Shown: positions 22,147 to 43,029 of the stretch, one piece after another
Numbering within the stretch: the first letter of the stretch is position 1
Layout of the letters: each line of letters begins with the position of its first letter
Assembly: GCA_019638675.1 (NCBI GenBank)
Contig: JAHBTE010000001.1
Location: 1,086,605-1,150,604, forward strand
DNA length: 64,000 nucleotides
Source: Fimbriimonadaceae bacterium
GTDB taxonomy: Bacteria > Armatimonadota > Fimbriimonadia > Fimbriimonadales > Fimbriimonadaceae
Direction of reading: 5' to 3'
Translations under genes and position numbers: made by a program
Notes under the pieces: model-generated
What the model was told of the DNA's origin: nothing
The model's input: only the letters and a program-made list of their open reading frames with translations
Databases searched by the model: none

Positions 22147-22199
22147 CAGTCTCACAGTTCAGCATTGCCCTTGAAGGTTTGATTGGTTTGAGAAAAGAT

Positions 22200-24272: not shown

Positions 24273-26482
24273 TGCGACTGCGCAAACGAAGAAAAGCTTT
24301 TACCCTTATTGAGCTACTCACAGTTATGGCGATCACTGCCATCTTGTTGACGGTGATTACGGTTCCTGTCGTGCAGAGCTTTAACCTGACTCGGGCAGCT
24401 CAAGGGTTCGCAAATGCTCAAAATCGGGCGCGATTGGTCATTTCCCAAATCGAACGCGAGGTTAGTAACAGCGCCGGAATTCGGGATAACTCTGGACAGG
24501 GCGGTTCGCTCTATATCATGGTTCCCGATAACACAGGTGCGCAGACGCCAATTCAATTGAGCTACGTGAAGATGGATATTGCTGCGCCGGCGCAAGGTGA
24601 TCCAAGTACTCGCGTTGGAACCGCATTTATTGATCCTGACACAGGAAAGGTTGACCCTACGCTGCAAACAACCAAGGGTCAAATGCAGTTGCCAGGTGTT
24701 CCGGGCGACACCGTTGTTCGGTACTTTATCTGCCGACGTGATCCGTTTACGAATTACAACAATCCGTTTCAGCGGTTCCGCAATCCAGGTGGCGCGCTTT
24801 GGCTCGGAACGCAAGGTGGGCGAGACAATCTGTATGTCCTCATGCGGGCAGAAGTTCAGCCTTACGTGTACCAAACGATCGCTGGTGTTCCAACCCGGGT
24901 TGTGAACTCTGACTTCTTTATGGATTTGGATCGGGATGCTGATCCAAATACCAGTGGGCCACTTTTAGATGACACGACATTTATGGATCCCCTCGCGCGA
25001 AATGCGTTAGGTGGAAGTGCGGCACTTGGCTACACAGTGCCCCAGGCTTATGATCCTGCTGATCGCGACGAAATGATCCGTAACTGGCTGAACAAGGCAA
25101 CAGTTGTGACCGAAGTCAGTCGGTACGACATGATCATGCCTATCTCCAATCCGTCTACTCAAGAAATTAAGTACAACGGTGCGGTACCGGTAGTTGTGCC
25201 TCTCGTTCGCTTCCAGCCAACTCGATTGAATACAGAAGCGGCCACGAAGCAACTTGCTGTTCGTCCAACGGAAGAATCAGACAACGTTGAAAAAATCGGC
25301 CCGGATGTGTACCTCACTCAATACGGAAGTTGGGCTGACGCTTATATGCGGGTTTTCCCAAGCCTTTACAACCCAGGAACAGGAGCTGGTGCAGCTTCGG
25401 CGGGTGCGGTTCGCGCTCCTTGGCCTGGTGGCGATACCGTTGACATGGTTCAGGATGTAAATGGCGACTTGGTTCTCGGTGTACCAGGTGGTAATTACTT
25501 CAACATCACGCGTTATTCAACACTGAAAGGAACTGGTGCAGATTATCCATTCACACGCTCGTTGAATATCCCGTTCCTAACAGGTAACCCTTTGGCAAGG
25601 CAAGAATTTATCGCGCTTGTGCCGGAACCAACGATTGGGAAAGTTGTCGGAAGTTTTGATATCCGAGATTACGGCGTAGATAATCTGGTTGCCTTTGAGG
25701 AGCGAGTACCTTCGAGCACAACGGCTGCTCCTGGAATCGTGGTTGGTGCTACGGTCACTCCGGCGGATGCAACATACACGGCGGGCGCATCTTGGGATAC
25801 CTACACAGGAATTAACGAACGATTTGCTCGGCTGTGGCATCAGTGGGATAGCCTGTGGCCGAATCTCGCTGCGGCTCCGGCTAGGGATGACCTTGCTGGT
25901 GGCGTCAAGCGATGGCTCGACCTCCGGTTCTTTGCTCAGGCAGGCCCATCGGCAGAACAAAGCCCGCTCACTCCTGGCTTATTCCCTCGAATCAGCATCA
26001 CTCCTGGTAGCGAAACAATTTACGGCCCAGACCAAAATCCTGGCCCGAACTACGGAAAAATCGTTCGCTACACACGAGTGCCAAACGTAGACTCGGTAAC
26101 CGTTGGTCCGAACCAATATAAGATCAATTACACAGATCGAAAGGAGCCAGATTGGGCGACACAGTTTGGATTTGGAGCGGTTAATTACGATAAGTCCGTT
26201 GCTAACCCCAACGACTTCCTGCAAGGCGTACTGCAAGCGCGTTACCGCGCTGGCTACGTCGAGTTGAATTCTCGATACGGTGAACCGATTCCTGCTGGGA
26301 ACATTTACGTCACCTATCGCTTCCAATTTACAGAGCCTAACGATGTGGTTTCGGTTGACTACGGTTCAACTGAACTCATGGAAGTCGTGCTCACAATTCG
26401 CAACTACCCGCAAACTAACGTACCGAACCCACAAATGGTGACGGTAAGAGGAACGGCGGCGGTGCGTAATAAGCTTCGGTGA
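24272..26482 (+). CDS. PilW-like minor prepilin, very large
   Basis: A 736-residue protein whose start MRLRKRRKAFTLIELLTVMAITAILLTV is a prepilin signal (Ala at -1, Glu at +5). RAAQGFANAQNRARLVISQIEREVSNSAGIRDN matches the PilW/GspJ-type helix and first strand. The head is several times longer than in PilW or GspJ, with segments such as DLDRDADPNTSGPLLDD (possible calcium loop) and many aromatic residues. The start overlaps the stop of the preceding gene (TAATG) and the next gene begins one base after its stop. Position and order (V, W, X) match minor-pilin operons of Pseudomonas. Confidence 0.75.
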   Translation: MRLRKRRKAFTLIELLTVMAITAILLTVITVPVVQSFNLTRAAQGFANAQNRARLVISQIEREVSNSAGIRDNSGQGGSLYIMVPDNTGAQTPIQLSYVKMDIAAPAQGDPSTRVGTAFIDPDTGKVDPTLQTTKGQMQLPGVPGDTVVRYFICRRDPFTNYNNPFQRFRNPGGALWLGTQGGRDNLYVLMRAEVQPYVYQTIAGVPTRVVNSDFFMDLDRDADPNTSGPLLDDTTFMDPLARNALGGSAALGYTVPQAYDPADRDEMIRNWLNKATVVTEVSRYDMIMPISNPSTQEIKYNGAVPVVVPLVRFQPTRLNTEAATKQLAVRPTEESDNVEKIGPDVYLTQYGSWADAYMRVFPSLYNPGTGAGAASAGAVRAPWPGGDTVDMVQDVNGDLVLGVPGGNYFNITRYSTLKGTGADYPFTRSLNIPFLTGNPLARQEFIALVPEPTIGKVVGSFDIRDYGVDNLVAFEERVPSSTTAAPGIVVGATVTPADATYTAGASWDTYTGINERFARLWHQWDSLWPNLAAAPARDDLAGGVKRWLDLRFFAQAGPSAEQSPLTPGLFPRISITPGSETIYGPDQNPGPNYGKIVRYTRVPNVDSVTVGPNQYKINYTDRKEPDWATQFGFGAVNYDKSVANPNDFLQGVLQARYRAGYVELNSRYGEPIPAGNIYVTYRFQFTEPNDVVSVDYGSTELMEVVLTIRNYPQTNVPNPQMVTVRGTAAVRNKLR

Positions 26483-26483
26483 T

Positions 26484-29400
26484 ATGAGAAGGACCATGAA
26501 CAGAACGGAACGTATGCTTATGAATCGGTCGCGCCAGCAAGGTCAGACCTTGATCATCGCGATTTTGATTCTTGGGGTTCTTTTGATCCTCGGAGTTGCC
26601 TTTGCCGGAATTATCAGCCGAAACATTACGGAAACTGGTCGTTCGGCTCAGCGCACAGTGGCGTCAGACCTTTCCCAAGCGGGGATCAAGTTTGCGCATG
26701 ATCAAATGTTGAACGGTAGCTTGGGTGCTGACTGGCGCCCGGCAAATACTGCTTTGACAGTTGATGGGGCTGGTTTCACTAAAGATCCAGATGCTCTGTA
26801 TCTTCGACCGGGATCAGGCTTCTTTGTCGAAGTTGATCCCGTAGGCAAACCCGGTTATCTTGTTGAAGACCTTGGTGGCCCAGACTATCTCGGTGCTTAT
26901 AGCCGAGTTGGTTTTGGAAAAGGCCGTTCTCTTCTTCGGGTTCGCTACTCTCCATCGGCATACGATGCGTTCGGTGCTTCCACTGGTGCACTCCGCGATG
27001 CTGGTAAGGCCCGCGGGCATATCATTATTGAATCTGTCGGTCGCGCTGGTGCCATTGATGACCAAGGTCGAATTGATCCGAGCAAATTGCTTGATCGTAA
27101 CGTTCAGGCGACTTTGTTTGCTGACGGAAACGCAGTTAGAAATGGATTAGGCGTTCTCAAAGCAGTTGATGCAGGTGTCACTAACTCTCGCCGAATGATT
27201 GCCTTTGCTTCCATTGGCTTCATGGAATCGGCTCGTTACATCACCAACAAGTACAACCGAAGTCAGTCGGCTCAAATTGGAACTCCGACTTCAGCGGCTG
27301 GCCCACTGTTTAATAGTGCAGTTGGAATAGGCGCAACCTACGAAGGCAATGACGTCAATGTGCCCCAGCAATTTGGTAGAAACCAATCTGGTGCCGCGAC
27401 AATTGCAGTTGACCAAGGTCGGTGGGATTTGCTTCCCGGCGGTGGTTCAATTTGGGTGAACGGATCGCTTGAAGTGTTCGGTCAATCAGACATTTTTATC
27501 AACCGACAACTCGGTGAATCGATTAACGTTACTGATGGAATTCGGCCAGCAAACAATAGTTCAGCTGTAAACCTACACATTTTTGCTCTTGATGGCACTT
27601 CAACCAACTGGCGCGAATGGCAAATAGGATTTGGCGACCCTGTCAACTCCCCTCAGCTAGTCACTGGCAACGGCCTGGATAGTAATAATGCGAACTTCAG
27701 CACCTTGGGTGGGGTCATTAAAGATGGACGCTTGTTGAGCGACCTTCCAGGATTTAATCGCATGACCGCAGTTAAGGCTGCTCCTTCTGTTAGCGCAACT
27801 GATCCTCAAACTGGTGACAATCGTTACCGTGAATTGAGTCAGCGCACTGGTGCTCTTGGCACAAACGGTCACCTTGCAGGTGAGTTTGGTCATGGTGAAG
27901 GCGTGTACGTTGATAGCCCAGAACGAGGTAACCGCAGTTTGGCTGATCAACGCAAAGGCCTTGATCCTCTTAAATCTTTGCCCAACGACTGGTTGAACCC
28001 GAATAATGCTTCTTCGCAAGGTTGGCAAGGCCAATACTACATTCCCAATGCACCTTACGTTCGGTTGCTTCCTGATGGATTTGAAATTATCCGGGATAGT
28101 CGAAGCAGTAGCGCAACTTGGAAAGATGTTAATGGCGTAGATACTGCGCAGACTCTCTGCCGCTATTGGATTCGCACGATTGGAAACCAAACTTACATCG
28201 TTAACTCAATCGCTAACCCAGCATTTGATCCGCTGACGGGCAACTTTGCCACCAACGGTCAGCTATTCAATGGTGTGTTGTTGTTCGAAGGTGACGTTCG
28301 AGTTCGAGGAGTTATTCCAACCGACCAGCAGCTGACTCTGGTTTCAATGGGTTCGATTTACATTGAAGGCAGTATCACTAAGGGCATTTTTGATCCTTGG
28401 ACAAACACGGTTTTGACTCGTCCAAGCACTTCACTCTGCGCTTTGCTGGCAAAAGATTTTGTGACGATCAACCCAACGATGTTCTTTGGCCCTGAAGTGG
28501 GAGAATCTCCTAAGCCAAAAACAACGAATCCGTTGCCAAATACGCCTAACCCAATTGAATTGGATGGCACTTCGTCTCCGGAACTGTTGATGACATCAGA
28601 AATGCTCCTCAACCCGGTAGGCAACAACCCAGCAAACTGGACAACTTTTGCCGAACAGTACGTTCCATCCGGCGGTTTGGGAGAACCAGGTGCTCTGGAT
28701 TCAAACATCTTGGTATCCGTTTCTGCCGATGACAACGGGCCTGGCTTCTTGGGTATGGATATCCTCTCGGGCACGTTCCGCGATGCTACGCCGACAGCAA
28801 CTCGATATCTTTATCCACGGGCTTACCTTGGCGTGTTGAATAACGATGCTTCTCCTTACTTCGGTGGAGCTGGCAACATTCCTTCATACGGCTTAGGCGA
28901 CCCAGCATTGAACGCATATCCGAAGTTCCAAACTTGGGCGATGCCGCTGGTGAACCTGCAAACTCCTGGTGGAGTTGCTCCTTACAACTCAGCCGGTAGC
29001 CGCAAGCTAGAAATGAACCCTGCCGCAATCGAAGGTCTTTATGATCTCTCGGTTCAAGATCCAACGTTCTTCCGAATGTTCTTGAACCCAGTCGGCGGTC
29101 AACCGACGAAGAACGTTTTGATTGCACGAACGGCAATCACTCCATTCGATGTGCGGATTGAAGCGGTGATGTACGCTGAAAACGGTTCGTTCTTTGTGAT
29201 TCCTGGTCAATGGTTTAACACCAATCCAGAAGACACCCGAGCAAACTTCGAGCAAAACTACACTCCAGGCGATACAACCGATGACTTGAATACCGCCGCT
29301 CTGGACTACGATCCAGGCCAAACCGTGACGGTTGCTGGTGTGACTTCTAGTCGCCGATTGCTGGCTCAGCAACGACGCGTAGAAAACTTCGGTGCTTCCG

Positions 29401-29783
29401 CAGAGGTTCCGTTCTACGGTGAACCGCTGGCATGCCGAATCACGATGGTAGGTTCAATTTCTGAAAACATGACCGCTCCGATGGCCATGCAAACAGAATG
29501 GTTGAAGAAATGGGGTTGGATGCCTCGTAGAATCGGTGGAACAGGTCGGATTCTTCCGGCGCAACATGTCCCAACTGGTTACAGCGTCGCGACTAACCTT
29601 GCCGTTCCTAATCTGAATTTGATTTACGACCCAGTTCTGGCTACGGCCGCTGTTCCGGTATCTGATGCCGCGAACGCAGTTCTGCAGTCAGTACGACGAG
29701 ACAATCAAGGGCGAATTTTGCCCCCGGCCCCCAGATTGCCGGTTAGCCCGACGTTGGCTTACTTTGGAGACATAAACCCGTGA
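26484..29783 (+). CDS. PilX/GspK-like minor prepilin, 1099 residues
   Basis: The N-terminus RSRQQGQTLIIAILILGVLLILGVAFAG has Gly at the predicted cleavage site and lacks Glu at +5, as in PilX and GspK. RNITETGRSAQRTVASDLSQAGIKFAHDQM is the PilX-type helix. Alternative starts are the ATGs at 26484, 26496, 26511 and 26520. The ectodomain is exceptional: PilX is about 170-200 residues and GspK about 320. It is Asn/Gly/Pro-rich and includes GDVRVRGVIPTDQQLTLVSM followed by GSIYIEGSITKG, a beta-helix-like passage also seen in large secreted PilX-like proteins. The next gene's GTG overlaps its stop (GTGA). Confidence 0.7.
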   Translation: MRRTMNRTERMLMNRSRQQGQTLIIAILILGVLLILGVAFAGIISRNITETGRSAQRTVASDLSQAGIKFAHDQMLNGSLGADWRPANTALTVDGAGFTKDPDALYLRPGSGFFVEVDPVGKPGYLVEDLGGPDYLGAYSRVGFGKGRSLLRVRYSPSAYDAFGASTGALRDAGKARGHIIIESVGRAGAIDDQGRIDPSKLLDRNVQATLFADGNAVRNGLGVLKAVDAGVTNSRRMIAFASIGFMESARYITNKYNRSQSAQIGTPTSAAGPLFNSAVGIGATYEGNDVNVPQQFGRNQSGAATIAVDQGRWDLLPGGGSIWVNGSLEVFGQSDIFINRQLGESINVTDGIRPANNSSAVNLHIFALDGTSTNWREWQIGFGDPVNSPQLVTGNGLDSNNANFSTLGGVIKDGRLLSDLPGFNRMTAVKAAPSVSATDPQTGDNRYRELSQRTGALGTNGHLAGEFGHGEGVYVDSPERGNRSLADQRKGLDPLKSLPNDWLNPNNASSQGWQGQYYIPNAPYVRLLPDGFEIIRDSRSSSATWKDVNGVDTAQTLCRYWIRTIGNQTYIVNSIANPAFDPLTGNFATNGQLFNGVLLFEGDVRVRGVIPTDQQLTLVSMGSIYIEGSITKGIFDPWTNTVLTRPSTSLCALLAKDFVTINPTMFFGPEVGESPKPKTTNPLPNTPNPIELDGTSSPELLMTSEMLLNPVGNNPANWTTFAEQYVPSGGLGEPGALDSNILVSVSADDNGPGFLGMDILSGTFRDATPTATRYLYPRAYLGVLNNDASPYFGGAGNIPSYGLGDPALNAYPKFQTWAMPLVNLQTPGGVAPYNSAGSRKLEMNPAAIEGLYDLSVQDPTFFRMFLNPVGGQPTKNVLIARTAITPFDVRIEAVMYAENGSFFVIPGQWFNTNPEDTRANFEQNYTPGDTTDDLNTAALDYDPGQTVTVAGVTSSRRLLAQQRRVENFGASAEVPFYGEPLACRITMVGSISENMTAPMAMQTEWLKKWGWMPRRIGGTGRILPAQHVPTGYSVATNLAVPNLNLIYDPVLATAAVPVSDAANAVLQSVRRDNQGRILPPAPRLPVSPTLAYFGDINP

Positions 29784-32700
29784 AGCAGTACACGAAATTG
29801 ACCCTTGGCTTATTCATGGCCTGCGCAGCATTTGTTGCGCAGGCTCAGCCAGTGAATTATGCGATCAAAACCAAGTCGATCAAGGCAGGGGTTTTGCTTG
29901 TTCGCGATAGTTCTGGTTTGATTCAGGCAAGCGGGGCTCCACACATCTGGACGATTCTCGATCGAGACACACAGATCAAGCCAGCTGAGTGGAATTTTGA
30001 TTCTCCACTTGGTCTTTCTGTGCTCAGCACAGAAGCCGCTAACCGCTGGGGAGTTCCCGGTAATGCTGGTAGCTCGATTAATAAAGCGTATGCGCCTTAC
30101 TGGGAGGTAGACCTCACCACCGCAACAGAGCAATCGCTGGCCAATTTCGATATCCTTCAGATGAGTGTCATCGGTTCTACGGTTATCACTCCAGATGAAC
30201 GAGAAAAACTGCGGTTGTTCGTCGACAAAGGTGGGATTCTGTGGGTTGATCTTGCTGTCGGTGGAACCGCTGCCTTTGATTCCATCAATAACCTTCCTTC
30301 GCCAGTTCAAATTGTGAACTCTGGTGCTGCACTTTCACTCAACGTTTTTCACCCGCTTGCGGCTGGTCCAAACCGATTGAACTTAGCTGACCTCTATGCG
30401 ATGAGCGATGCAAGCTCATCTCTTTCGGTCGTTCCTTTCGATTTTCCAGGTACCGCTGTGGATCAGCTTTTCCGAGGTACACGACAAGATGGCTTGCGGC
30501 TTGACCCAGCGGCCCTAACCGGATCTAACGCGGTTGTTGCAAGCGCGCAAATTGGTGATGGGTATATGGTGATCACTACTCGAGGCGTATCTCGTGTGAT
30601 CAACCGCAGTGCGTTTACACCGTTTAACAATAACGCTTTAACGGTTGGCCCTCCGAATAAAGATCAAGCTTATTTTGCGGCGACTAAGCTCGTCATGAAT
30701 ATGCTTTCGCTTTCTTCGCGATTTACATCGCATGGAAACGGAAGTCGAAACAGTAATTCGGTAACCGCCACCGTTAGTGCGCCCGCATTAAAACGATTTG
30801 CTGCACCAGCATTTGGTGGAACCAAGGGTTCGCCAGTACTTTTCAATGGTAGGTTCATCGTTAGAGCTGGTGGAACGCTTTATGTTTACGATGCTGATCC
30901 TAGCAACGATATTGATCGAGATGGAAACCCAGACGATGGCATAGTTGACCCAGTTGGTTCGGCTTACGACCGCATCTGGTCGAGCCAAGATATGGGCACA
31001 ATTTCTGACCCAATTGTTATTGAGTCACCCAACTCACCATTAGTTGAGCAGATTTGGGTTCAAGACAGCAATGGTCGCGCCCACGGCTTTAACCTGAGTC
31101 AGAGCACCTTTGTAAACGTTACTCCGTTTGCTACAATCGATGGCCCTCCGCCTCCAGCTGGTGCGACCGTATCCACGATTTTTGCTCCGACTTATCATGA
31201 AGGCATGCTGTTCTTTACCAATGGTTTTGATTCAGGTCAAGGTCGTTTGTGGAGCCTGAACCCACGGATGGCAGCAGAAGGTGCTGGCAACGAATCCCGC
31301 AACGTAGATGATGATGGCGTTGTCGGCGGAAACTACTGGTGGTCGGTTGAAGGAGCTCCTGATCGCTTTAAGGCACCCGGTGCAAGTGCGTCGGTTGCCT
31401 ATATTCCAATTCAGGATGGTTCTGGTGGTTTGGATCGAGTGGCGTACATTGCCACAAACAGAATTCCAAGTGGCCCAGGAACTGCTCCAGCAGGTTTAGT
31501 CAGTATTTGGATAGGCGCGCGCGCTGAAGTTCCGACTGGGGTCGGTCGAGCTGGTGCTGCACTCAATCTTGAAACACGAGCCGCTCGTAATCAACTGCCT
31601 CTTTCAATCACCCAAGGAGATCGTTCTCCATTCGGTTTGAATGTTCGAGTTATTCGACCAAACGGAATTCCGCTAACCGCGACTGAAATGGGCATTTACT
31701 TTACTGGTGTCGTCACCCAGCCAAGTAATGGAAGAATTCAGCTTCAGATTACTCCTGGTTTTGAAACGGGAACGTTCGACTGGGATGGCAACAATACGGC
31801 TTCGACTGCGGATGACGTCAGTTATCGAATTGACTATACGATAGATGCAACAAGAGTTGCAGTTGGTTATAATGGTACGAAGTACGTTCGCTCTTGGCTA
31901 TTCGTTGTTGACGAGAGCGGTAATCCTCAACTTGATGTCCAAGCCGCTCCTGCTATTTCGGATAGTGGAAACGTTGGTCTAATCGTTGGCCGAGATAACG
32001 GCGGTTCATTCTATAACTTCAAGGAAAATGCGCCAGGTCAAATTTTCGTTAAGTCACGATTTGAATTCCATAGTGCAATTAATAACCTCGGTGCGTTAGG
32101 CACAAACCAAGGTTATCCAAGCTCGCTGGTTGATGAAGATGACTTGGTTCGATTGATTCCATTCTTAAATCTTCCTCTGTCCAACATTCATCCGGTTGGG
32201 ATTGCTGCCTCTGGCGATTCGTTCTATGTCAGCGTTGAAGCAGGGAAGAATGCAGGGCCATTCCAGGTTCCAACAAGTGCTCTTCTCTCATTTAAGGCAG
32301 ACCCCGATCCCATTGAATTTACGATTGATATCGGAGCGAATCAGCAAAACACGGCGGTTCTGTTCAAACAACCAGATACGGCAAGAAGTGGTTATTCTGC
32401 CATTCCTGGATTGTTTAGTAGTCGCTCATCTAGCGAATTCAGCATAGAGCCGATCCCAAATACCTCGCTTGCGCGAGTGATCATGCAGAGCCTTGCCGGA
32501 ACAACTAGCAACGGTGCTCTCAATTCCTGTTTTGCAAATAACCTCCCCATTATCGTGAACCGTGGCGGTCAAACCGATACGATTTACGAACCAGAAGCAC
32601 CCACCAATAGCGGCGTGTTCTTTAGAGGCCGTGCTGCAGGTCGGTACAACTCTCTGCGTTGGTACACGGTCTTGAACGGCTATCGAGTACAGCAGGGCCC

Positions 32701-34585
32701 TGTTGTTGCTGGTGGCACCATGTTCGTGGCGGGGCAAAGCGTGTTGCCGTCACTGATGAATGGCGATTTTCCTCCGACAAGTCTTGATGGCTTGATGTTC
32801 GGAATGGACACCGCCCTTAGCCCTGACGACCGACACATGATCTCGACTTCGGCAAGGCCGTGGATAACTCAGTTGTTCCAACTGAAATACACTCCTGGCC
32901 CTGGCGACCCGGTCAACCCGCCTCCGTTCAGCTTTAACAAGGTTACACCTGCAGAACCGATCCGCTGGCCACAGGCAAAAGGAATTACATCGTTTGATGA
33001 CTTCCGAGTGCGGATTTTGCAGGCGGCTTTGCTGAACGAAAACCAATTTGCTGGGTTAGCGGTTGGTGAAGGTGCGGTAGCTGTTGTCTCGGAAGATAAT
33101 TCGACACTCTTCAAACGAAGCGACTTCTTGGTCGTTGACGCAGGTCGAATCAGCCGATTTGACCCAAGCGGAAACCCAATTTGGGCGACTGAATCAACCA
33201 CTTATGCTGGTTTTAATCAACCAGGAACCTCTGAACGAGCACGAAGACTTTCAACGCCAAGTAGAGCTTATCCAGACGGAGCGAATGGATATGTGTTTGC
33301 TGATCCAGGTAATAACTTGGTTTCAAGAATAGACTCAGCAGGTCGCGAAATTCGAACTGTTGAATCTATCCGATTCCATCCAGACGTATACGCCACTACT
33401 GATCCAGGGCGCCCAGAAAAGAGCCCCCGTGGTCAAGGTTTGAATGAAGCGAAATTGCTTCGCAATCCGCAAGACGTTGGATTCTGGACAACTTACGTTT
33501 CAGCGGCTGATGTGGATCGACTCTTCCCGAGCGAAAATATCTCTACCGGTGGCTATCGAACCATTACAAACGAGCGATGGGATCACTGGCTGATCGCTGA
33601 TGCTGGCAATAGTCGCGTAATTGAATTGATTGATCGTTATGCGCTAGATTCATTTGGTCGGGTGACAGGCGTAGTTCGTTATCGCGATCTTTCAGATAAT
33701 GAAGGCGATACGTTAACCCCTGCACTTGGAATTCTTTGGTGGCATTCACCAGAAGAATTTAGCGGAAAACGATACGCTTATAATACGCTTGCCAGAACAA
33801 CGGTTGATCTTGGTGCAACAACTAGAGAAGCAGTTGCTCTCGGATTCAATAATGTTCAACCTAGCTTGCAAACTTTTGGCTTGGATACATCGACTCCTCC
33901 AAAAGTAGACAATGCGACTGGTTACGGTGGAGTCGTGATTTACGATGGCCCTTCAACTAAGGTCATCAATGAATATACGATTCCGGCTCTTCCAAATGGA
34001 ACGCTGATTTCTGACCTCGGTGGTGGAAACTTCTCCTATGATCCGGGAATGGGCGCAACCAGTGAGCAAACGGTAAAGGTGAGCAACCTCACGTCAGTGA
34101 GCGTTCGCTACATAGATACTGGTGCTGGCTTGGTGCTGACCGTAATGGTTTCGACTGATCGCGGCGTATTTGAACTATGGGAACGCCCATTTGGCACAGG
34201 TACACGCTGGGAAGTCCGCTGGATGTTGCCAAATAAGGCGTACGTGAATATGCGACGATCTTCATTGACGGCTACCAACTTTACGCTTGCTGGTTTGGGA
34301 TCAAATTCAGTTGGATTCCGACCAATGCATGCACGAAGATTAGACAGTGGTGACGTATTGATCGTGAACGGTTATACAGGAACTACACGAATCGGTAATG
34401 CCTTCAATGGTGAAGTTATCTTGGTCAGTGGAAATTTTGCCAATGGTAATCCGGATATCCGGCAACCAGGCTATGACATTAATCGAATGAACCTTGGCTT
34501 TAACAGCTTAAGCGTGCAGTTCGAACTACCTCCGGTGCAAGGTATCCGCGGCATCGTGAGACCAATTTTTGCGGAGAGGCAATAA
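29780..34585 (+). CDS. Giant secreted protein 1: GATase-like domain plus beta-propellers
   Basis: A 1601-residue protein with signal peptide MKQYTKLTLGLFMACAAFVAQA. Residues about 30-290 resemble the DUF4350/ThuA-like glutamine-amidotransferase fold (DILQMSVIGSTVITPDEREKLRLFVDKGGILWVD) without an evident catalytic Cys. From about 330 there are strands of PQQ-like or kelch-like propeller type (SPVLFNGRFIVRAGGTLYVYD, ISDPIVIESPNSPLVEQIWV). Towards 1150-1300 are NHL-like units (GYVFADPGNNLVSRIDSAG, WLIADAGNSRVIELID). It begins within the stop of the PilX-like gene, so it is co-translated with the minor pilins. I infer a pilus-associated tip or adhesin role, analogous to PilY1; no sequence homology to PilY1 was recognised. 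Confidence 0.6.
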   Translation: MKQYTKLTLGLFMACAAFVAQAQPVNYAIKTKSIKAGVLLVRDSSGLIQASGAPHIWTILDRDTQIKPAEWNFDSPLGLSVLSTEAANRWGVPGNAGSSINKAYAPYWEVDLTTATEQSLANFDILQMSVIGSTVITPDEREKLRLFVDKGGILWVDLAVGGTAAFDSINNLPSPVQIVNSGAALSLNVFHPLAAGPNRLNLADLYAMSDASSSLSVVPFDFPGTAVDQLFRGTRQDGLRLDPAALTGSNAVVASAQIGDGYMVITTRGVSRVINRSAFTPFNNNALTVGPPNKDQAYFAATKLVMNMLSLSSRFTSHGNGSRNSNSVTATVSAPALKRFAAPAFGGTKGSPVLFNGRFIVRAGGTLYVYDADPSNDIDRDGNPDDGIVDPVGSAYDRIWSSQDMGTISDPIVIESPNSPLVEQIWVQDSNGRAHGFNLSQSTFVNVTPFATIDGPPPPAGATVSTIFAPTYHEGMLFFTNGFDSGQGRLWSLNPRMAAEGAGNESRNVDDDGVVGGNYWWSVEGAPDRFKAPGASASVAYIPIQDGSGGLDRVAYIATNRIPSGPGTAPAGLVSIWIGARAEVPTGVGRAGAALNLETRAARNQLPLSITQGDRSPFGLNVRVIRPNGIPLTATEMGIYFTGVVTQPSNGRIQLQITPGFETGTFDWDGNNTASTADDVSYRIDYTIDATRVAVGYNGTKYVRSWLFVVDESGNPQLDVQAAPAISDSGNVGLIVGRDNGGSFYNFKENAPGQIFVKSRFEFHSAINNLGALGTNQGYPSSLVDEDDLVRLIPFLNLPLSNIHPVGIAASGDSFYVSVEAGKNAGPFQVPTSALLSFKADPDPIEFTIDIGANQQNTAVLFKQPDTARSGYSAIPGLFSSRSSSEFSIEPIPNTSLARVIMQSLAGTTSNGALNSCFANNLPIIVNRGGQTDTIYEPEAPTNSGVFFRGRAAGRYNSLRWYTVLNGYRVQQGPVVAGGTMFVAGQSVLPSLMNGDFPPTSLDGLMFGMDTALSPDDRHMISTSARPWITQLFQLKYTPGPGDPVNPPPFSFNKVTPAEPIRWPQAKGITSFDDFRVRILQAALLNENQFAGLAVGEGAVAVVSEDNSTLFKRSDFLVVDAGRISRFDPSGNPIWATESTTYAGFNQPGTSERARRLSTPSRAYPDGANGYVFADPGNNLVSRIDSAGREIRTVESIRFHPDVYATTDPGRPEKSPRGQGLNEAKLLRNPQDVGFWTTYVSAADVDRLFPSENISTGGYRTITNERWDHWLIADAGNSRVIELIDRYALDSFGRVTGVVRYRDLSDNEGDTLTPALGILWWHSPEEFSGKRYAYNTLARTTVDLGATTREAVALGFNNVQPSLQTFGLDTSTPPKVDNATGYGGVVIYDGPSTKVINEYTIPALPNGTLISDLGGGNFSYDPGMGATSEQTVKVSNLTSVSVRYIDTGAGLVLTVMVSTDRGVFELWERPFGTGTRWEVRWMLPNKAYVNMRRSSLTATNFTLAGLGSNSVGFRPMHARRLDSGDVLIVNGYTGTTRIGNAFNGEVILVSGNFANGNPDIRQPGYDINRMNLGFNSLSVQFELPPVQGIRGIVRPIFAERQ

Positions 34586-34588
34586 GCA

Positions 34589-37500
34589 ATGAAGGAGTCT
34601 GGAGTGGAAAAAACCCGTATGAATCGTGACCGATTGGGTTTGGGCCTTTTAATGGTGGTAGCGGCAATTCTTGCCGTACCGGCCTTTGCCCAAGATTTTC
34701 GTTCGTTCCATGGAACGAGCGAGCGAACAGGTCGTGCCAGTATTCAACCTTCAACTGCCGTCGCAGAAAATGTTTGGAACAATGGTGGTCGAGGATTTCT
34801 CCGTTGGTGGGATCCGATTTTTGAAGCAGGAACCGAGGTTGATAACCCTAGTATTAACGCTAACATCCTAACTGGAACCTGGGATAACCCATTTCCATTT
34901 GGTGCTGGCGTTAATCCAGTGCTTGCTCTCGGATATCAAGTTAGTTCACCTACAGAAGAGCCGTACCTTTATGCAGTAACTACCACTGCGGGCGGTATTT
35001 CAGACCCCGATCCATCTGCTGGGGCAACTGCATCTTTCACCTGGAATATGAACGGTCTGATTCCTGGTTCGGAGTACTCAATCGAAGTAAACGTTCCAGT
35101 TGGACCAACAAATGTCAATCCTCTTGGAGCAACTGATCTCCGATTCACCCCACACTATCAGCTGTATTCAGTTCAAAGTAATACGGGAACGGACTTCTTC
35201 TGGCTAGACCTTTTTGAATCTGCTGGCGGTTATGGCGAATTAGCGGAAGGTCAGGCGTTTGAAGCTATGGCGGGTGGAAACATCCGTGTAACTCTCTACA
35301 ACGTTGTTCGACGAAATGATTTCGGAACTCAAATTGATCCACTGGATACACCAGGTACCGATATCGTTTATGCAGACGCGGTTAAAGCTGTGTCTCGATC
35401 ACCGAGAGGCGTTGCAAATGCAGTCGCGACCCCAGTTGTTGGTCAACTTACACAAGCTCCGCTTGATGCCCCAACTTTTGGCGTGCTCTCCGATCAACGT
35501 GTGTTCAGTAGTCGCAACGAAGATGCTTTCTTTGGTGCAATCAATAAGGAAATCCGGTTCGGAACAGTTACATCTTTCACCCATAACGGTGAACTCGTAG
35601 ATGCGTTTTCACCGCTACGAAGAAATATGATGTGGAGTTGGCCGGCAACTCGCCCACTCGATCTGAGCCAAGCCGAATCAGATCGCTATGCAGTTGATCG
35701 TCAGAATTGGGTTCTTGGCGCACCAAATCCGAACTATCCTCGCTACCAGGTTTTCCGACAAGCTGATAACCTTAGCGCGGCTACGACTATTGGTGCTGGA
35801 TTCGTTGACGATAATACGTTTAACTCGCGCGGGCCGAATTACACTATTACTCCGGCAGTGGTTACGGCTAATAGCTTCGTTCATTGGAACCCTGTTGCAT
35901 CAGAAGGAAATTACTCAATTCAAGTTCATTTCCCTAACAACGACACAGCTGCAGACCTTGCAACCAACGTTACTTACGAGATTCTGCAAGGGGCCACTGT
36001 GGTCGCTATTAGAACAGTTAACCAATCCACTCTCAACGGCTGGGTAAACATTCCGAATCAGCCGGAAGACGGTTTTGCACACACTGCTCTAAACCCACTA
36101 TCTATTCGAGTCCTGAATAGCGGATCTGCTCAAGATGTTCTAGACGGGCGCGATGTATATGCAGATGCGGTTCGATTTGTTGGCGATGCTGACCTTGGAA
36201 TTACAAGCACTCCAGTACTGACCGTAGCCAATGTAAATCCGGGAACCGGGACGACTACGCGAGACGTGCTTGTTGTTGCCCGTGAAAACGGCTCGATCAC
36301 TGCTATGGAAGCGCACGGAAATGATGCCACGGCTTCCCAACAGCACGTGTTATGGACATATCCAAGCGAAGATGTTGCTACCGATCCTAATGATGATCCA
36401 ACGGAAGACTACGGTATTACCGAAAACCCAACCAAATTTAACTTGAGTTCTGCTCTGGTGACCAATATTGCTGGGCAAGACTTGCTTTACATTGGTTCGG
36501 ATAACGGAAAGGTCTACTGTCTGGAAATGGAAGGCCGTGGCGATGGAACTACTCGCCGGCGATGGACTTGGCCCGACGACTTTAACCCAACTAATCCGCT
36601 TGTGCCTATGCAAGCAGGTGTTGGCCCAATCAAAGGCTCAATTGCCCTAGCCAATTTTGGCGGCGTTCCGCACATTATCGTGCCTGACAGTAACGGAAAA
36701 GTTTATGCCCTTGATGCCGCTGGAAATCCAGCTAGCAAAACAACGAACATGACTTGGGAATATCCTGCGTTTGGAAATAACCTTGGCGCATTGGAAATGA
36801 CCCCAGTGGTCGCGTTTGGTCAGATCACTTTTGCTGCCGCTAACTTAGCGGCCCCAACGGAAGGAGTGATCCACTCCCTCGTCGAAGATGCAGGAACCGC
36901 GGGTGTTGCAAACGTGGCTTGGACACGAGATACGCGTCTTGATGGCGTAACCCCGTTTGGACTATTTGGTTCATCAGCGCCAGTTGCTGTGAACGCTCCT
37001 ATCGTCGCAAATAATTCGTTGTACTTTGTTGACAATGGTGGCTATGTCACAAGCATCAATGCGGCAACAGGAAACGTCCAGTGGCAGGAATTGAGTGTAG
37101 CCAGTGGTTCGACTGCAAACTTGAGTTTTGCTTACATGAGAACCTATGACGGAACAGGATCATTCATCGTAGATGATGTTCCTACCGTTCTGGTGGCTAC
37201 CACAGGTGGCTCGCTACTTGGTTTCTATGCAGATGGCACGGTGAACATCAACGGCAACCGCATTAACTGGGGTTACTACGTTGAGAGTAACGGTGACCAA
37301 ATGTCTGGCATCGCTGTTGGTGGATGGCCAAATGCGGCTGGATTGCTGGCTAACCGAACCCACCTCTATACAACCGATGCAGATGGACTGTTGTACGCAT
37401 TTTCGAGTGAAGATGATACGAACTCTGTTCCACCGATCACACCTGGAGTTCCACCAGGACGTAGAACTGCAACCCCTAACGATCCGAACCAAGGTCTGTT

Positions 37501-40500
37501 GAACGGATTGATTCAGCAAGATGATGTGCTAGTCCTGTCTGTTGACCAATTCAGGACGCTCACAAACGCCTATCAAGCTGGCACTCTCACTTATGCGATG
37601 CTTGATAACATCAAGTCTTCTGCTCCGATGAACCGTCGACACTATGAATATGGCGAAGCGGTTTACATTGCGGTCATGAATATTCCGGATACGACAGTTG
37701 CTTCAACAAATGGTTATGTTGTAGCTGGAATTCTTGCGGGTAATCAGTCTCGGGGCGTACCTGTTAGTCCAATTCGAAACGTCTCTGGAGCTCCAACTCC
37801 AGAGCAAGGAGGCGTTGCGCTACTTGCCCTTAGTTTAACGCCAACCGGAAGCAATGCAGTAACACCTGGTCAAGTGAGCGTACAAGTCAGTGCGCGACAA
37901 GCCAATGTCAACGGCGCTCCGGTTCGGGTGAGAAGCTCGGCGTCGCAACCAGCGATTGACATCTTTGTTGCCAACCCATTTGGACTTACCTTTACAAATC
38001 CTGGTGGAGGCACAAACAGTGCAGGTGTAACTACCGATCCAATGAACCCACTTGTTATGGGAACGATGCCACTCGGTAAAACGACTGCAGTTGCAACTCC
38101 ATACAATAAGTGGACAAGTACGGGATTCTTGGCACCAAATGCTCTCACTGAAGCTGTACCTGGAGCTTGGCTCAGCACAACCAATGGTGGTGTTGACCCT
38201 GTAGCTCACGGTTCCGTTGGTCGGGCAGATATGCAAGTGTATGACCGAACAGCAATGGTTTTGTTGAGTAACCGCGGTCTGCAAAGTGTCAACGTGCGGA
38301 ACACCGATTTGAGCTGGCAGCCAAACAGCAATTTCGCCCCTACCACGGCCGCAGAAGCTGGTATTTACAATCCAATTCCGTACAACGGATTTGAAGATTT
38401 GCCAAATCAGTATCCGAACGTCAGTTTGGATTATCCAGACCTGAATCGAAGCGGAATGCAAATCACCAAGAGCTTGCGTGGCGATAGCCAGAACGCTCTC
38501 TTTGGTACTGGTGTTTCGTTGAATCCACCTGCTAACGTGGATCGGGCAACGTATGAAGGCTCGGTTGCTGGTTACGAGGCAGGTTTGCCACGGTCATTGG
38601 TTAATACACCGTTTTCAATCTCATTGAACATCCCTCGGTATCAACCTGCGTCTACTGCCAATGGTTCTCGAACCTCAGGTTATGCTTCAGACAACATTAT
38701 CTATGTTGATCGCGGTCGTTCAGGGTATGACCAAGCAGATGCAGCACGTGGATTCACTCTAGGATCAAATGTTGCAGTTGATGTCCGATTGAATACGGAA
38801 ACAAAAACCGTTGATTTAGGTTCAACTCCTGCCGGCGGCGGAATGTACGATCCAGGAACTGGTGCGCCAAATAATCCATGGGCAAACAATGTCTTTGGAC
38901 CATTTAACGCAGCATTCATGGGTGCTAATCCGCAATTCCAACAGTTCACAGTTCTTAACGAAGGCAACGTCAACCTGCTTAACGTTCGCCTTAGTAAGAG
39001 ATTTGGTGTGATAAGTGGCGGTACTCAAGTAGAACGACCACTTGAACTCTATGCTGGAGCAGACCATGAACTCGGCTGGCTTGATGGTGCGGTCACTATG
39101 TTTAGCGATCTTGACCCACAACTCAGTCCAACTTTCCGATCAGGATTGGATGCTGCAGGAAGAGTCTTCTTGCAAAAACCACGTCCTGGCGATCCGGCAC
39201 CTTCGCGATTGAAGACGAATCCGAGACGACGACAAAACAGCAACTTGAATGTAAATTCAGGAACGCTGATAGCAGATGTTGCTAACTTCCCGGATGCCGA
39301 CCCCTACGTTGGCATTGCCGCACCGATTGGTGCTCCAGTGGGTAGCTATTCTCGTCCAATCTTCCCATTCGAAGATATTCCTGGTACGAATCTAGATCCA
39401 AACGTTCCGACGTTGGGCTACTACTCGACAGGACTTGCCTTTAATCCAGAATCGTTTGCTGACCCCGGATTTACTCTCAAGTTCAATGTTCGGGAAACAC
39501 GATTGACCAACCGGTCGACGACAAAGAGCAGTAATTTGCTTGAAAATATCACGCCAGTTGATCCTGGAATGGAATGGTCGAACCGACAGCCTTCGATCTC
39601 ACGAGATGCACAAGGCAACTTGTTTACAGCTTGGAGTTCAAACCGACTCGATGCTGGAAACAATCCTGCATTCTCGGCCAGAGGTCGAAATCAGCTCGAT
39701 GCCGCTAATCAAGATGTGTGGCGAATTTACTTCGCAAATATGTCTAGTACCGGCCTTGCTGGGGCAGTTGGAGATAACCCATTACGTGATTTGACGACTT
39801 GGAGTTCAGCGGCAGCTGGTGACCCAACTTGGCTCCATACTGCTGGCACCTTGCCGGTCGGTAACGAATGGAATAACTGGTTTGCTCTGCAACCTGGGGA
39901 AGCCCTTCAGGCTCCAGGTGACCCAAGCTCTGCCAAATTCTTCTACCCAACGTTTGCGGCCCAAGGATTTATCAATCCTCTGGCGCCAGCAAGCCCAAGC
40001 CGGCCAACCTTTGCTGATCGGTATATGGCGTTTGTGGGTGAAACAACGAAGCTGGATCGCTCCGGTAAACCGTTAACGCTCAGCCAAGTCATGATCGCGA
40101 ATTTGAACTTTGGTGTGACGACCACTCGAAACAATACGGGTGCTTTGAACGGCATCTTCCCAATTACGGATGATCCGACTTCAAAGAAAGGACGACCTAG
40201 CCTGGTTCAAAATGGAACTGGAGCAAGTGTGTTCTACACGGCTCAATCTGCTGGAAGAGCTGAACTGTATGGTGCTAGCTTCAACGGAGCAACTTGGTCT
40301 CAGGCGCAAAGCTTAGGCCTTGCAGCTAACTTTGAAGAAGTTGGAGCACCAACCGTTTTGTTGAGAACTCAGTCAACTGCAGTTGCAGGATCCACTGGTT
40401 CGGCCATCACAGTGTTCTTTACTGGGCAGGTGAGAGGTCGCACCAATGCTGAAGGTTTCATGGGTGAACTTTCGGCAAACCGTGGTGGACAACTGGTACC

Positions 40501-41653
40501 AAATGCGGCTTGGCGAATCTTTGAAGATCGACTTGATCGCCTTGAATATGATTCGACAACTGGCGTTTACTGGACTCCAGGCGTCCATTGGGCAATGGGG
40601 CCAGATGATGTTGATCAACTTGAACTCACCGTGCTGAACCCATCAACAGGCCAACTTGAATCTCTTATTCGAAACACCACCGTAGCAGATCGACGAACTC
40701 GAGTTGTTGATCGAACCACGCGCGAAATGGTCTTCGAAGGAACTCGAGGCGGCAAGATATACATCGATGCACTCCGTGGTTCGGTTCGCTTAAGCGGAAC
40801 AATTCTTGGTCGAGGCGCGCAAATCTTTGCAACTTACTCACCACGATTTGTCCGAGTCAGCGGTGCGCAAGGTGCCTTCAACGTAGGTAATGCACTTTCG
40901 CCAGGTGGTGAACGAATCGCTCGTAGCAACACCAGCACGGGAGCAAACTACCGCGGTGCTTCGGCTGTCTATGATGACCGACTGCTTGGTACTTACTTGC
41001 ATCCAACGCTTGGTGAAAGAGCGCTCACTGAAGATGCTAACTTCTGGTACGACGGAAACGGAGCCGCCCTTGGCTCACCGTTCCCAGTTCGACAGGATCG
41101 GTTCTATCTTGCATTCAACCGAACATCTGGTGATGGTTCTGCAGCTGCGCGACCAGTTATGAGCTCAATGCGCTTTGGTGTGCATCTGCCAACTCCGGTT
41201 GCAATCGCTCCGAACGGAACTCCCCAAAGTCTGACAGTGACGGTTCAACCACCATTGCCTGGTGATCCGCCAAATCCGGCACTTCCGAACGTATTTGTTC
41301 AGGTCGATCCGGCATCTGGCAAGCTGTTTATTCCGGCAGAGTTTGAAGGAGTTCGAATCCAAGTCCGCTACAATGGTGTGGATGTCAACGGCAACGCTCT
41401 GAACAACATTGTCCGAACGGAACGAGTTGGACTCATTCATGAAACGGGTGAGCAGGTGGTTCCAATTGAACAGGTTGGTCGAGAAGGAGACTTCTTCATG
41501 AGCCTTGACCGTGTCAATCCAAATGATCCGTTTACAAGCAATCGGCGACCACCACTGCTTTGGATGATTTGGAGTAGTTCTCGAACGGGTGCACCAGACG
41601 TTTACTTCCAAACCCTAGCACCAAAAACCACGGCAAGTTTGCGGCGACCGTAA
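34589..41653 (+). CDS. Giant secreted protein 2: golvesin-like and PQQ beta-propeller domains
   Basis: A 2354-residue secreted protein. The signal peptide is RLGLGLLMVVAAILAVPAFAQ; the start may be the ATG at 34589 or 34619. Two sandwich domains resembling the golvesin C-terminal/carbohydrate-binding type lie at about 95-270 and 380-530, each ending in YADAV plus a short strand. They are followed at about 535-930 by BamB-like PQQ propeller blades (DLLYIGSDNGKVYCLEM, HIIVPDSNGKVYALDAAGN, NSLYFVDNGGYVTSINAATG). The C-terminal part has sialidase-type Asp-box-like strands (RQPSISRDAQGNLFTAWSSN) and ends PDVYFQTLAPKTTASLRRP. It starts 3 bases after giant protein 1. A 15-bp terminator follows. Likely a surface or pilus-tip binding protein; function not established. 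Confidence 0.6.
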   Translation: MKESGVEKTRMNRDRLGLGLLMVVAAILAVPAFAQDFRSFHGTSERTGRASIQPSTAVAENVWNNGGRGFLRWWDPIFEAGTEVDNPSINANILTGTWDNPFPFGAGVNPVLALGYQVSSPTEEPYLYAVTTTAGGISDPDPSAGATASFTWNMNGLIPGSEYSIEVNVPVGPTNVNPLGATDLRFTPHYQLYSVQSNTGTDFFWLDLFESAGGYGELAEGQAFEAMAGGNIRVTLYNVVRRNDFGTQIDPLDTPGTDIVYADAVKAVSRSPRGVANAVATPVVGQLTQAPLDAPTFGVLSDQRVFSSRNEDAFFGAINKEIRFGTVTSFTHNGELVDAFSPLRRNMMWSWPATRPLDLSQAESDRYAVDRQNWVLGAPNPNYPRYQVFRQADNLSAATTIGAGFVDDNTFNSRGPNYTITPAVVTANSFVHWNPVASEGNYSIQVHFPNNDTAADLATNVTYEILQGATVVAIRTVNQSTLNGWVNIPNQPEDGFAHTALNPLSIRVLNSGSAQDVLDGRDVYADAVRFVGDADLGITSTPVLTVANVNPGTGTTTRDVLVVARENGSITAMEAHGNDATASQQHVLWTYPSEDVATDPNDDPTEDYGITENPTKFNLSSALVTNIAGQDLLYIGSDNGKVYCLEMEGRGDGTTRRRWTWPDDFNPTNPLVPMQAGVGPIKGSIALANFGGVPHIIVPDSNGKVYALDAAGNPASKTTNMTWEYPAFGNNLGALEMTPVVAFGQITFAAANLAAPTEGVIHSLVEDAGTAGVANVAWTRDTRLDGVTPFGLFGSSAPVAVNAPIVANNSLYFVDNGGYVTSINAATGNVQWQELSVASGSTANLSFAYMRTYDGTGSFIVDDVPTVLVATTGGSLLGFYADGTVNINGNRINWGYYVESNGDQMSGIAVGGWPNAAGLLANRTHLYTTDADGLLYAFSSEDDTNSVPPITPGVPPGRRTATPNDPNQGLLNGLIQQDDVLVLSVDQFRTLTNAYQAGTLTYAMLDNIKSSAPMNRRHYEYGEAVYIAVMNIPDTTVASTNGYVVAGILAGNQSRGVPVSPIRNVSGAPTPEQGGVALLALSLTPTGSNAVTPGQVSVQVSARQANVNGAPVRVRSSASQPAIDIFVANPFGLTFTNPGGGTNSAGVTTDPMNPLVMGTMPLGKTTAVATPYNKWTSTGFLAPNALTEAVPGAWLSTTNGGVDPVAHGSVGRADMQVYDRTAMVLLSNRGLQSVNVRNTDLSWQPNSNFAPTTAAEAGIYNPIPYNGFEDLPNQYPNVSLDYPDLNRSGMQITKSLRGDSQNALFGTGVSLNPPANVDRATYEGSVAGYEAGLPRSLVNTPFSISLNIPRYQPASTANGSRTSGYASDNIIYVDRGRSGYDQADAARGFTLGSNVAVDVRLNTETKTVDLGSTPAGGGMYDPGTGAPNNPWANNVFGPFNAAFMGANPQFQQFTVLNEGNVNLLNVRLSKRFGVISGGTQVERPLELYAGADHELGWLDGAVTMFSDLDPQLSPTFRSGLDAAGRVFLQKPRPGDPAPSRLKTNPRRRQNSNLNVNSGTLIADVANFPDADPYVGIAAPIGAPVGSYSRPIFPFEDIPGTNLDPNVPTLGYYSTGLAFNPESFADPGFTLKFNVRETRLTNRSTTKSSNLLENITPVDPGMEWSNRQPSISRDAQGNLFTAWSSNRLDAGNNPAFSARGRNQLDAANQDVWRIYFANMSSTGLAGAVGDNPLRDLTTWSSAAAGDPTWLHTAGTLPVGNEWNNWFALQPGEALQAPGDPSSAKFFYPTFAAQGFINPLAPASPSRPTFADRYMAFVGETTKLDRSGKPLTLSQVMIANLNFGVTTTRNNTGALNGIFPITDDPTSKKGRPSLVQNGTGASVFYTAQSAGRAELYGASFNGATWSQAQSLGLAANFEEVGAPTVLLRTQSTAVAGSTGSAITVFFTGQVRGRTNAEGFMGELSANRGGQLVPNAAWRIFEDRLDRLEYDSTTGVYWTPGVHWAMGPDDVDQLELTVLNPSTGQLESLIRNTTVADRRTRVVDRTTREMVFEGTRGGKIYIDALRGSVRLSGTILGRGAQIFATYSPRFVRVSGAQGAFNVGNALSPGGERIARSNTSTGANYRGASAVYDDRLLGTYLHPTLGERALTEDANFWYDGNGAALGSPFPVRQDRFYLAFNRTSGDGSAAARPVMSSMRFGVHLPTPVAIAPNGTPQSLTVTVQPPLPGDPPNPALPNVFVQVDPASGKLFIPAEFEGVRIQVRYNGVDVNGNALNNIVRTERVGLIHETGEQVVPIEQVGREGDFFMSLDRVNPNDPFTSNRRPPLLWMIWSSSRTGAPDVYFQTLAPKTTASLRRP

Positions 41654-41678: not shown

Positions 41679-41719
41679 AAGTCGCTGCCAGTTGAAGAAC
41701 TGGCAGCGACTTTGCTTTT
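41679..41719 (+). terminator. Strong rho-independent terminator between giant protein 2 and pilM
   Basis: A perfect 15-bp stem, AAGTCGCTGCCAGTT / AACTGGCAGCGACTT, with a GAAG tetraloop is followed by TGCTTTTG. It ends the pilin and giant-protein operon and separates it from the pilM-pilQ operon. Confidence 0.9.
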
Positions 41720-41779: not shown

Positions 41780-41809
41780 TTGACTCTGGTGAGTGTGTGA
41801 TGCTAACAT
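41780..41809 (+). promoter_or_regulatory. Sigma-70-type promoter for pilM
   Basis: A -35 TTGACT (41780-41785), an 18-base spacer and a -10 TAACAT (41804-41809) lie just past the terminator. Transcription would begin near 41816. This rules out the GTG at 41797 as the pilM start, because it lies between the promoter elements, and supports the ATG at 41842. Confidence 0.65.
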
Positions 41810-41841: not shown

Positions 41842-43029
41842 ATGGCGAAAAGGTTAAACAGCGTTTTGGGAGTTGATGTCGGGAGTCAATCGGTTAAGGT
41901 TGCAGAAATTCGACTTCAGGGCAATCAGCCCGTTATCACAGCATTGGGGATTGCTCCGACTCCAGAAGGAGCGGTAGATCATGTTGGAATCAATGATCCT
42001 GAAGCCGTGGCAGTAGCGGTAAAGCAAGCAATTATGGATTCCGGAGCTTCTGCGCCAGATGCAGTAAGTTCACTTTCTGGTCAAGGCTCTGTACTTGTTC
42101 GCCAGTTGGAAGTTCCCAACATGAGTGAATCTGAACTGAAAGATCACATGGCATGGGAGTTCACACGAAACATTCCGTTTGCTGAAAGCACCGTTGAAAC
42201 AGATTTCAAAGCTTATCCTCTCATTGACCCAGCCGCGCAAAACGTGGATGTGGTCATGGCAATGGCGACACATTCTAGTGTGGAAACCCACGTGCAGATT
42301 TTGAAACGAGCTGGTCGAAAACCAGCGGCGCTAGACGTGGAACCACTTGGTTTATTGCGTTCTGTAGCTATGAGCTACGGCAGTGAACTCGCTGGCAAAA
42401 CCATCTGCATTGCAGAAATGGGCCACAAAACGACTTCAATCAATATCTATAAGGATGAGCGGTTACTGATGGCCCGGCAAGTGCCAGTCGGCGGGCAAAT
42501 GTTTACTCAAGCCATTGCTGATGCTCAAGGCGTATCAATGACTGATGCTGAGCAGATGAAGAAGGATCAGTTGAGCCTTCCAGATAACGCAGTGGCCGCA
42601 ACGGGAGCATTTAACCCATTTGGCTCGGCGGCACCGGTTCAATCCTATAATCCATTTGCTGATCCAGGTGAAGTTACTCAGGGTATGCCAGAACAGCCTG
42701 CCGAAACAACCCCGGTCGCGAGTTCGGGTAGCCCGCTTTACTCAGCAGTTGCTGCGGCTCTGGATGAATTGGTTTCAGAAATTCGCCGCTCGGTCGATTA
42801 CTTTAAAAATAAAGGTGGCGACGTCGATGTGATCTACCTAACGGGTGGTTCATCTCAAATTGGCAATCTCGCAAACTTCCTCAAGTCGGCACTTGGGACA
42901 GATGTTCAAATGTTCGACCCGATGAAGAATGTTTCAATGAGTTTGAAGAAAGGTGATCCTGCTATGGTTGAAAATGACCGTCAGGAATTCGCCGTGGCAA
43001 TTGGTAATGGGATGCATATTTGCTTCTAA
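41842..43029 (+). CDS. pilM: Type IV pilus alignment protein PilM, with an NPF-containing insert
   Basis: Actin-like (FtsA-fold) cytoplasmic protein that binds the N-terminus of PilN and links the ATPase platform to the secretin. From the ATG at 41842 it has 395 residues: VLGVDVGSQSVKVAEI is the phosphate-1 strand, MSESELKDHMAWEFTRNIPF is PilM-specific, DVEPLGLLRSVAM and MGHKTTSINIYKDERLLMARQVPVGG follow, and VDVIYLTGGSSQIGNLANFL is the phosphate-2/adenosine region. Between 'TDAEQMKK' and 'SAVAAALDELV' is an insert of about 55 Pro/Ala-rich residues with two NPF motifs (AFNPFGSAAP, YNPFADPGE) not found in typical PilM. First gene of the pilM-N-O-P-STN-pilQ operon, with its own promoter. Confidence 0.93.
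   Translation: MAKRLNSVLGVDVGSQSVKVAEIRLQGNQPVITALGIAPTPEGAVDHVGINDPEAVAVAVKQAIMDSGASAPDAVSSLSGQGSVLVRQLEVPNMSESELKDHMAWEFTRNIPFAESTVETDFKAYPLIDPAAQNVDVVMAMATHSSVETHVQILKRAGRKPAALDVEPLGLLRSVAMSYGSELAGKTICIAEMGHKTTSINIYKDERLLMARQVPVGGQMFTQAIADAQGVSMTDAEQMKKDQLSLPDNAVAATGAFNPFGSAAPVQSYNPFADPGEVTQGMPEQPAETTPVASSGSPLYSAVAAALDELVSEIRRSVDYFKNKGGDVDVIYLTGGSSQIGNLANFLKSALGTDVQMFDPMKNVSMSLKKGDPAMVENDRQEFAVAIGNGMHICF

Follow-up and report, generated by a model that had tools for sequence, protein, structure and literature searches.

Background

The system closest to the locus analysed here is PilY1/PilC (PF05567, structure 3HX6). PilY1 is a large secreted protein whose gene lies directly after that of PilX in a minor-pilin operon. 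A priming complex of PilY1 with the minor pilins is kept at the pilus tip in M. xanthus, and the model places PilX, which does not have Glu5, there beside PilY1 (PMC7541494). PilY1 combines propeller blades with a non-propeller N-terminal domain that is variable. Its calcium motif 1 has been defined as Dx(D/N)xDGxxD (PMC13190605). This motif is common in PilY1 without being universal. The PQQ propellers (PF13360), BamB among them, are the second point of comparison. A further one is the Verru_Chthon cassette (TIGR02596, TIGR02599 and TIGR02600), in which one of the minor pilins is a giant PilX-like protein. We know of no counterpart in that cassette to the two giant proteins described below, and a search of the open-access literature (subscription papers were outside its scope) found no description of them.

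The pilus locus

The window is the whole stretch of DNA that was analysed, 64,000 nucleotides of a genome of 2.85 Mb in the phylum Armatimonadota; the nearest relative with a name is Fimbriimonadaceae CP075366.1. It contains the gene order pilB-pilT-pilC-pilD-pilin-V-W-X-Y-Z-pilM-N-O-P-STN-secretin. Y and Z are our names for ORFs of 1601 and 2354 residues that lie 3' of X, a PilX/GspK-like minor pilin. The features that matter for the argument are as follows.

17487..18767, + strand: pilT (TIGR01420, 483 bits against a cut-off of 319)
21223..22146, + strand: GspG-like pilin (family-model matches)
22179..24272, + strand: V, PilV-like minor pilin, 697 aa (position, N-terminal sequence and a weak TIGR02523 match, E 0.016)
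24272..26482, + strand: W, minor pilin, 736 aa (N_methyl over cut-off)
26484..29783, + strand: X, PilX/GspK-like minor pilin, 1099 aa (no Glu5 in the predicted mature N-terminus)
29780..34585, + strand: Y, predicted secreted protein in the PilY1 slot, 1601 aa (ORF, translation, homologues across the phylum, dN/dS)
34589..41653, + strand: Z, predicted secreted protein, 2354 aa (ORF, translation, homologues, dN/dS)
41679..41712, + strand: terminator-like hairpin of 15 pairs, 3' of Z (pattern scan)
41780..41809, + strand: promoter-like site, 5' of pilM (pattern scan)
41842..43029, + strand: pilM (TIGR01175 over cut-off; the longest ORF starts at 41797)

PilT and PilM (the latter with 189 bits against a cut-off of 133) both score above their cut-offs, which makes this a type IVa pilus machine rather than only a type II secretion system. 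They are accompanied by PilB, PilC and the secretin. The PilB match has 607 bits, under its equivalog cut-off of 676.

The first-pass annotation claimed two giant secreted proteins, translated directly after X. Both ORFs are present at the lengths it gave. Y and Z are real genes. In a comparison with the close relative L001, dN/dS is near 0.04 in Y and near 0.05 in Z, which is strong purifying selection, and the homologues retain open frames across the phylum. Each starts with a Sec-type signal sequence, judged by eye in the window and in relatives, and an alternative start of Z at the eleventh codon (34619) likewise yields one. The two junctions were also read correctly. X and Y overlap by GTGA, and Y and Z are joined by TAA-GCA-ATG, a 3-base gap that suggests coupled translation. 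The claim that the pair sits before pilMNOPQ holds as a matter of gene order and needs a refinement. A strong terminator-like hairpin and a promoter-like site separate Z from pilM, so Y and Z are probably the end of the minor-pilin operon, likely on one shared transcript, rather than part of pilMNOPQ.

The minor pilins V, W and X are themselves giant, and no domain is recognised in the middle of X and V. The absence of Glu5 in X is shared with PilX and GspK, which means X is expected at the very tip. As in those systems, its gene is 5' of the gene for the proposed tip protein. X differs from GspK and PilX in its length, which ranges from about 800 to 1160 aa among members, and in matching almost nothing in the libraries, apart from GspK, to which 2 of 20 members have weak matches. 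A ComZ-like solenoid had been suspected in X by eye; a PDB search with the X profile gave no relevant match, so that idea is unsupported. W and one X member have weak matches to the Verru_Chthon models TIGR02600, TIGR02599 and TIGR02596, all far below the cut-offs. It must also be noted that dS against L001 is 0.71-0.77 for W and X, about half of the 1.4-2.2 found for V, Y, Z, pilM, N and O. The W-X tract (24272-29783) looks as if it had been exchanged by recombination.

Domains of Y and Z

Y can be divided into an N-terminal domain, a long propeller region and a conserved tail.

29984..30292, + strand: DUF4159/ThuA-like N-terminal domain, Y residues 69-171 (PF13709 E 2.2e-5, just under cut-off)
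30830..34429, + strand: propeller region, Y residues ~351-1550 (Pfam, PDB profile matches, self-repeats)
30908..30934, + strand: DIDRDGNPD, Y residues 377-385, which fits PilY1 calcium motif 1 (motif scan, aligned loop)
34553..34582, + strand: conserved C-terminal tail of Y, consensus QPxFADR, RPIFAERQ in the window (member alignment)

The N-terminal assignment comes mainly from the family, where 25 of 30 Y members match DUF4159 and one also matches ThuA. NHL-like strands had been proposed for Y. Blades of this type are supported across the members (15 of 30 match NHL in Pfam), and PQQ blades are there as well (PQQ_2 in 13 of 30). The PQQ-like blades are at residues 351-555 and the NHL-like ones at about 1092-1283, in one or more propellers. 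When the Y profile is compared with itself, repeats appear at about 351-555 and 960-1283, together with a weaker one at 1455-1550. The same profile matches solved designed PQQ and NHL propellers with E values of about 1e-18 to 1e-16, where the scores are summed over many short repeats. AlphaFold runs on residues 24-600 and 331-1530 with two-sequence input had mean pLDDT of 27 and 26 and produced no usable model. Calcium motif 1 occurs in 48 of 68 Y sequences against 0.3 expected by shuffling, a comparison among mutually related sequences, and is missing in 20. The tail follows a variable stretch, and its residues P1595 and R1600 are conserved in at least 90% of the 30 members.

Z has a different arrangement.

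35012..35458, + strand: first golvesin-like domain, Z residues ~142-290 (98.5% in a profile comparison with the second)
35804..36187, + strand: second golvesin-like domain, Z residues ~406-533 (PF25275 E 2.9e-5, below cut-off)
36197..37423, + strand: PQQ/BamB-type blades, Z residues ~537-945 (PF13360 over cut-off; PDB propellers, BamB; self-repeats)

Golvesin-like domains resemble carbohydrate-binding domains. PF25275 scores 24.6 bits on the Z of the window against a cut-off of 31.6. The two such domains that the first-pass annotation saw in Z are supported by the family. Golvesin_C is matched in 13 of 19 Z members (best E 1.4e-32), and the two domains are mutually homologous in a profile comparison (~162-286 against 441-546, at the 98.5% listed above). 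Both precede the PQQ blades, and a blade-like segment follows each. The BamB-like blades of the first reading of Z are supported as well. The blades of Z match PQQ_2 and the solved structure of BamB, as do some blades in Y, and a profile comparison links Y to Z through one PQQ-like stretch (97.3%). This likeness to BamB is one of blades. The BamB equivalog TIGR03300 gives 17.1 bits where its cut-off is 285.2, and proteins of the Y and Z type are much larger and are set in a pilus operon. No domain is recognised in the last 1400 residues of Z. There is a conserved motif, WxFWxSTRxGxxDLYxxT, close to its end (window 41430-41653). By eye this resembles the strands of PD40/sialidase-type propellers, and Z may have a second propeller there.

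A proposed role for Y and Z

We argue that Armatimonadota probably use Y, a protein of another family, in the function that PilY1 has elsewhere, with Z as an accessory adhesin. We hold this with moderate confidence. The slot of PilY1, in which Y had been placed, is the right one to compare: the Y gene comes directly after X, just as pilY1 ends the order pilV-pilW-pilX-pilY1 in the Legionella control.

The scenario we have in mind is drawn from the genes, by analogy. Y would be exported by Sec and would cap the minor-pilin complex by way of the Glu5-less X. During growth of the pilus, Y would pass out through the secretin and remain at the tip, as in M. xanthus. Contact with X may be made by the propeller body and the conserved C-terminal tail of Y, and a putative calcium loop may tune the stability of the protein. 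The DUF4159-like N-terminal domain would face outward, where it would bind a surface or sense it. Z, probably on the same transcript as Y, may contribute an adhesive module, with or without direct contact to Y. Fimbriae without motility are reported for the cultured species Fimbriimonas ginsengisoli, and its pili have been proposed to serve in attachment (PMC4072686).

Distribution across the phylum

The first-pass annotation proposed to look for the gene pair beside minor pilins in related genomes. A protein search of 201 genomes of the phylum finds Y in 123 and Z in 57. A 30-sequence Y profile has matches in 181 of the 201, a minority of them weak with E near 1e-4. PilM is found in 195 of these genomes and X in 185. 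Of the loci that were fetched, 38, belonging to 21 family groups, have Y 3' of X. The X frame is uncalled in two of these (L081 and L094), where a long antisense frame was probably taken instead.

In 27 of these 38 loci the gene next after Y is a recognised Z. Six more have a protein of 1.8-2.2 kaa in its place that the Z profile does not recognise. Four of these six were scanned (L078:2426-8023, L079:10157-16480, L082:3013-8340 and L096:11497-17748, each about 1.8-2.1 kaa) and have no significant Pfam match. The remaining five (L067, L069, L071, L075 and L097) have Y after X and no adjoining Z. In genome G135 a Z-like C-terminus and Y are on different contigs. These exceptions, along with the wider occurrence of Y than of Z, are what one would cite for a scenario where Y is the tip protein and Z a separate secreted or surface-bound adhesin outside the pilus that shares only the locus. 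That is possible, if somewhat doubtful. It has to contend with the 27 loci where Z does follow Y, with the six large proteins in the same place and with the 3-base gap between the two genes.

Comparison with PilY1

We next consider whether the counterpart of PilY1 could be PilY1 itself. No sequence homology had been recognised in the first reading of the locus, and the searches agree. PF05567 is found in 0 of 30 Y members and in 0 of 201 genomes of the phylum. Run on the record of a Legionella plasmid, the search does detect PilY1. That control, from Legionella adelaidensis, was located with a consensus query for the family. BLASTP finds no match between Y and PilY1, and hhalign gives a probability of 1.9% with a PilY1 profile of only four sequences. 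Y is therefore not a detectable member of the PilY1 family, yet it shares the slot and the layout. A resemblance noticed by eye between the Y consensus PTVGY and GSPTVGD of PilY1 was rejected, as the profile comparison gave no support.

The alternative is that Y is a true PilY1 so diverged that common ancestry remains while the propeller has drifted beyond detection. We consider this unlikely. In its favour, Y is predicted to be secreted, occupies the same slot, and joins a non-propeller N-terminal domain to propeller blades that carry a predicted calcium motif 1. The PQQ blades of Z also match the PilY1 propeller weakly in hhalign (63.6%, again with the four-sequence profile). This is what one would expect from a shared PQQ-like propeller. 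Several differences count against common ancestry. The N-terminal domain of Y is DUF4159-like, not vWA or DUF4114, its blades are of NHL and PQQ type, and a second giant protein is usually found 3' of it. The calcium loop, compared by eye, is also placed differently relative to the neighbouring strands. Together with the empty PF05567 search, whose control was positive, and the low hhalign probability, this argues for a different family in the same position.

The weakest alternative, which we regard as improbable, is that Y and Z are substrates secreted in type II style and released with no structural role: X and the machine do also resemble GspK, GspE, GspF and GspD, and propeller and golvesin domains are frequent in secreted enzymes and binding proteins, but PilT and PilM are over their cut-offs, Pfam scans of the Y and Z members found no catalytic domain, and type II substrates are rarely fixed beside a tip pilin across a whole phylum.

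Lineages without Y and Z

Relatives that have the pilus locus and lack both genes had been named in advance as evidence against a pilus-tip system. Such relatives exist. Among genomes picked for lacking a strong Y match, L106 and L108 have X directly followed by pilM with neither Y nor Z. In L107 and L109 X is followed by the N, O and secretin genes with the pilM frame uncalled, and these probably lack the pair too. Others of the genomes picked in this way have X away from a pilM cluster. The pair is thus not required for every pilus of this type. On a tree of X, rows without Y are scattered over several separate places. Five changes are required to explain them, at least four of which are on well-supported branches, and either side of the midpoint root includes rows with Y. 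Repeated lineage-specific loss of Y and Z is therefore the best fit, for a tree whose branches are long and which is not rooted on an outgroup.

A different arrangement is seen in family f22, where one or two shorter secreted proteins (L114:11825-14659 and L115:5105-6784) come next after X. The first of them fills the slot and has PD40 (TolB-type) propeller repeats (E 5.9e-18 and 2.6e-11). We tentatively suggest, and it may be right, that Armatimonadota independently evolved a PilY1-like tip protein with an N-terminal DUF4159-like domain, an NHL/PQQ propeller with a calcium loop and, for docking, a C-terminal tail. In most cases its partner would be a second giant propeller protein that bears golvesin-like domains, and a PD40 family could fill the slot where the pair is missing. 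If this is true, a secreted propeller on a Glu5-less pilin would be a recurrent solution for the pilus tip. Armatimonadota, a phylum of environmental bacteria, may have built the grip of their pilus tip from a different protein family than PilY1, and surveys of PilY1 by Pfam domain would score the phylum as having no tip adhesin of this kind. A slot protein found across a phylum with no detectable homology to PilY1 would suggest convergent evolution of the type IV pilus adhesin and mechanosensor.

Two reduced 1.5-Mb genomes of one genus (G181 and G185; loci L117 and L118) have neither Y nor Z and have lost nearly all PilM signal, which counts in favour of the role proposed for Y. PilM is unmatched in one of them and weakly matched in the other. 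Both loci still encode a divergent X-like pilin, with an in-frame TGA in one match to the X-like stretch of L118.
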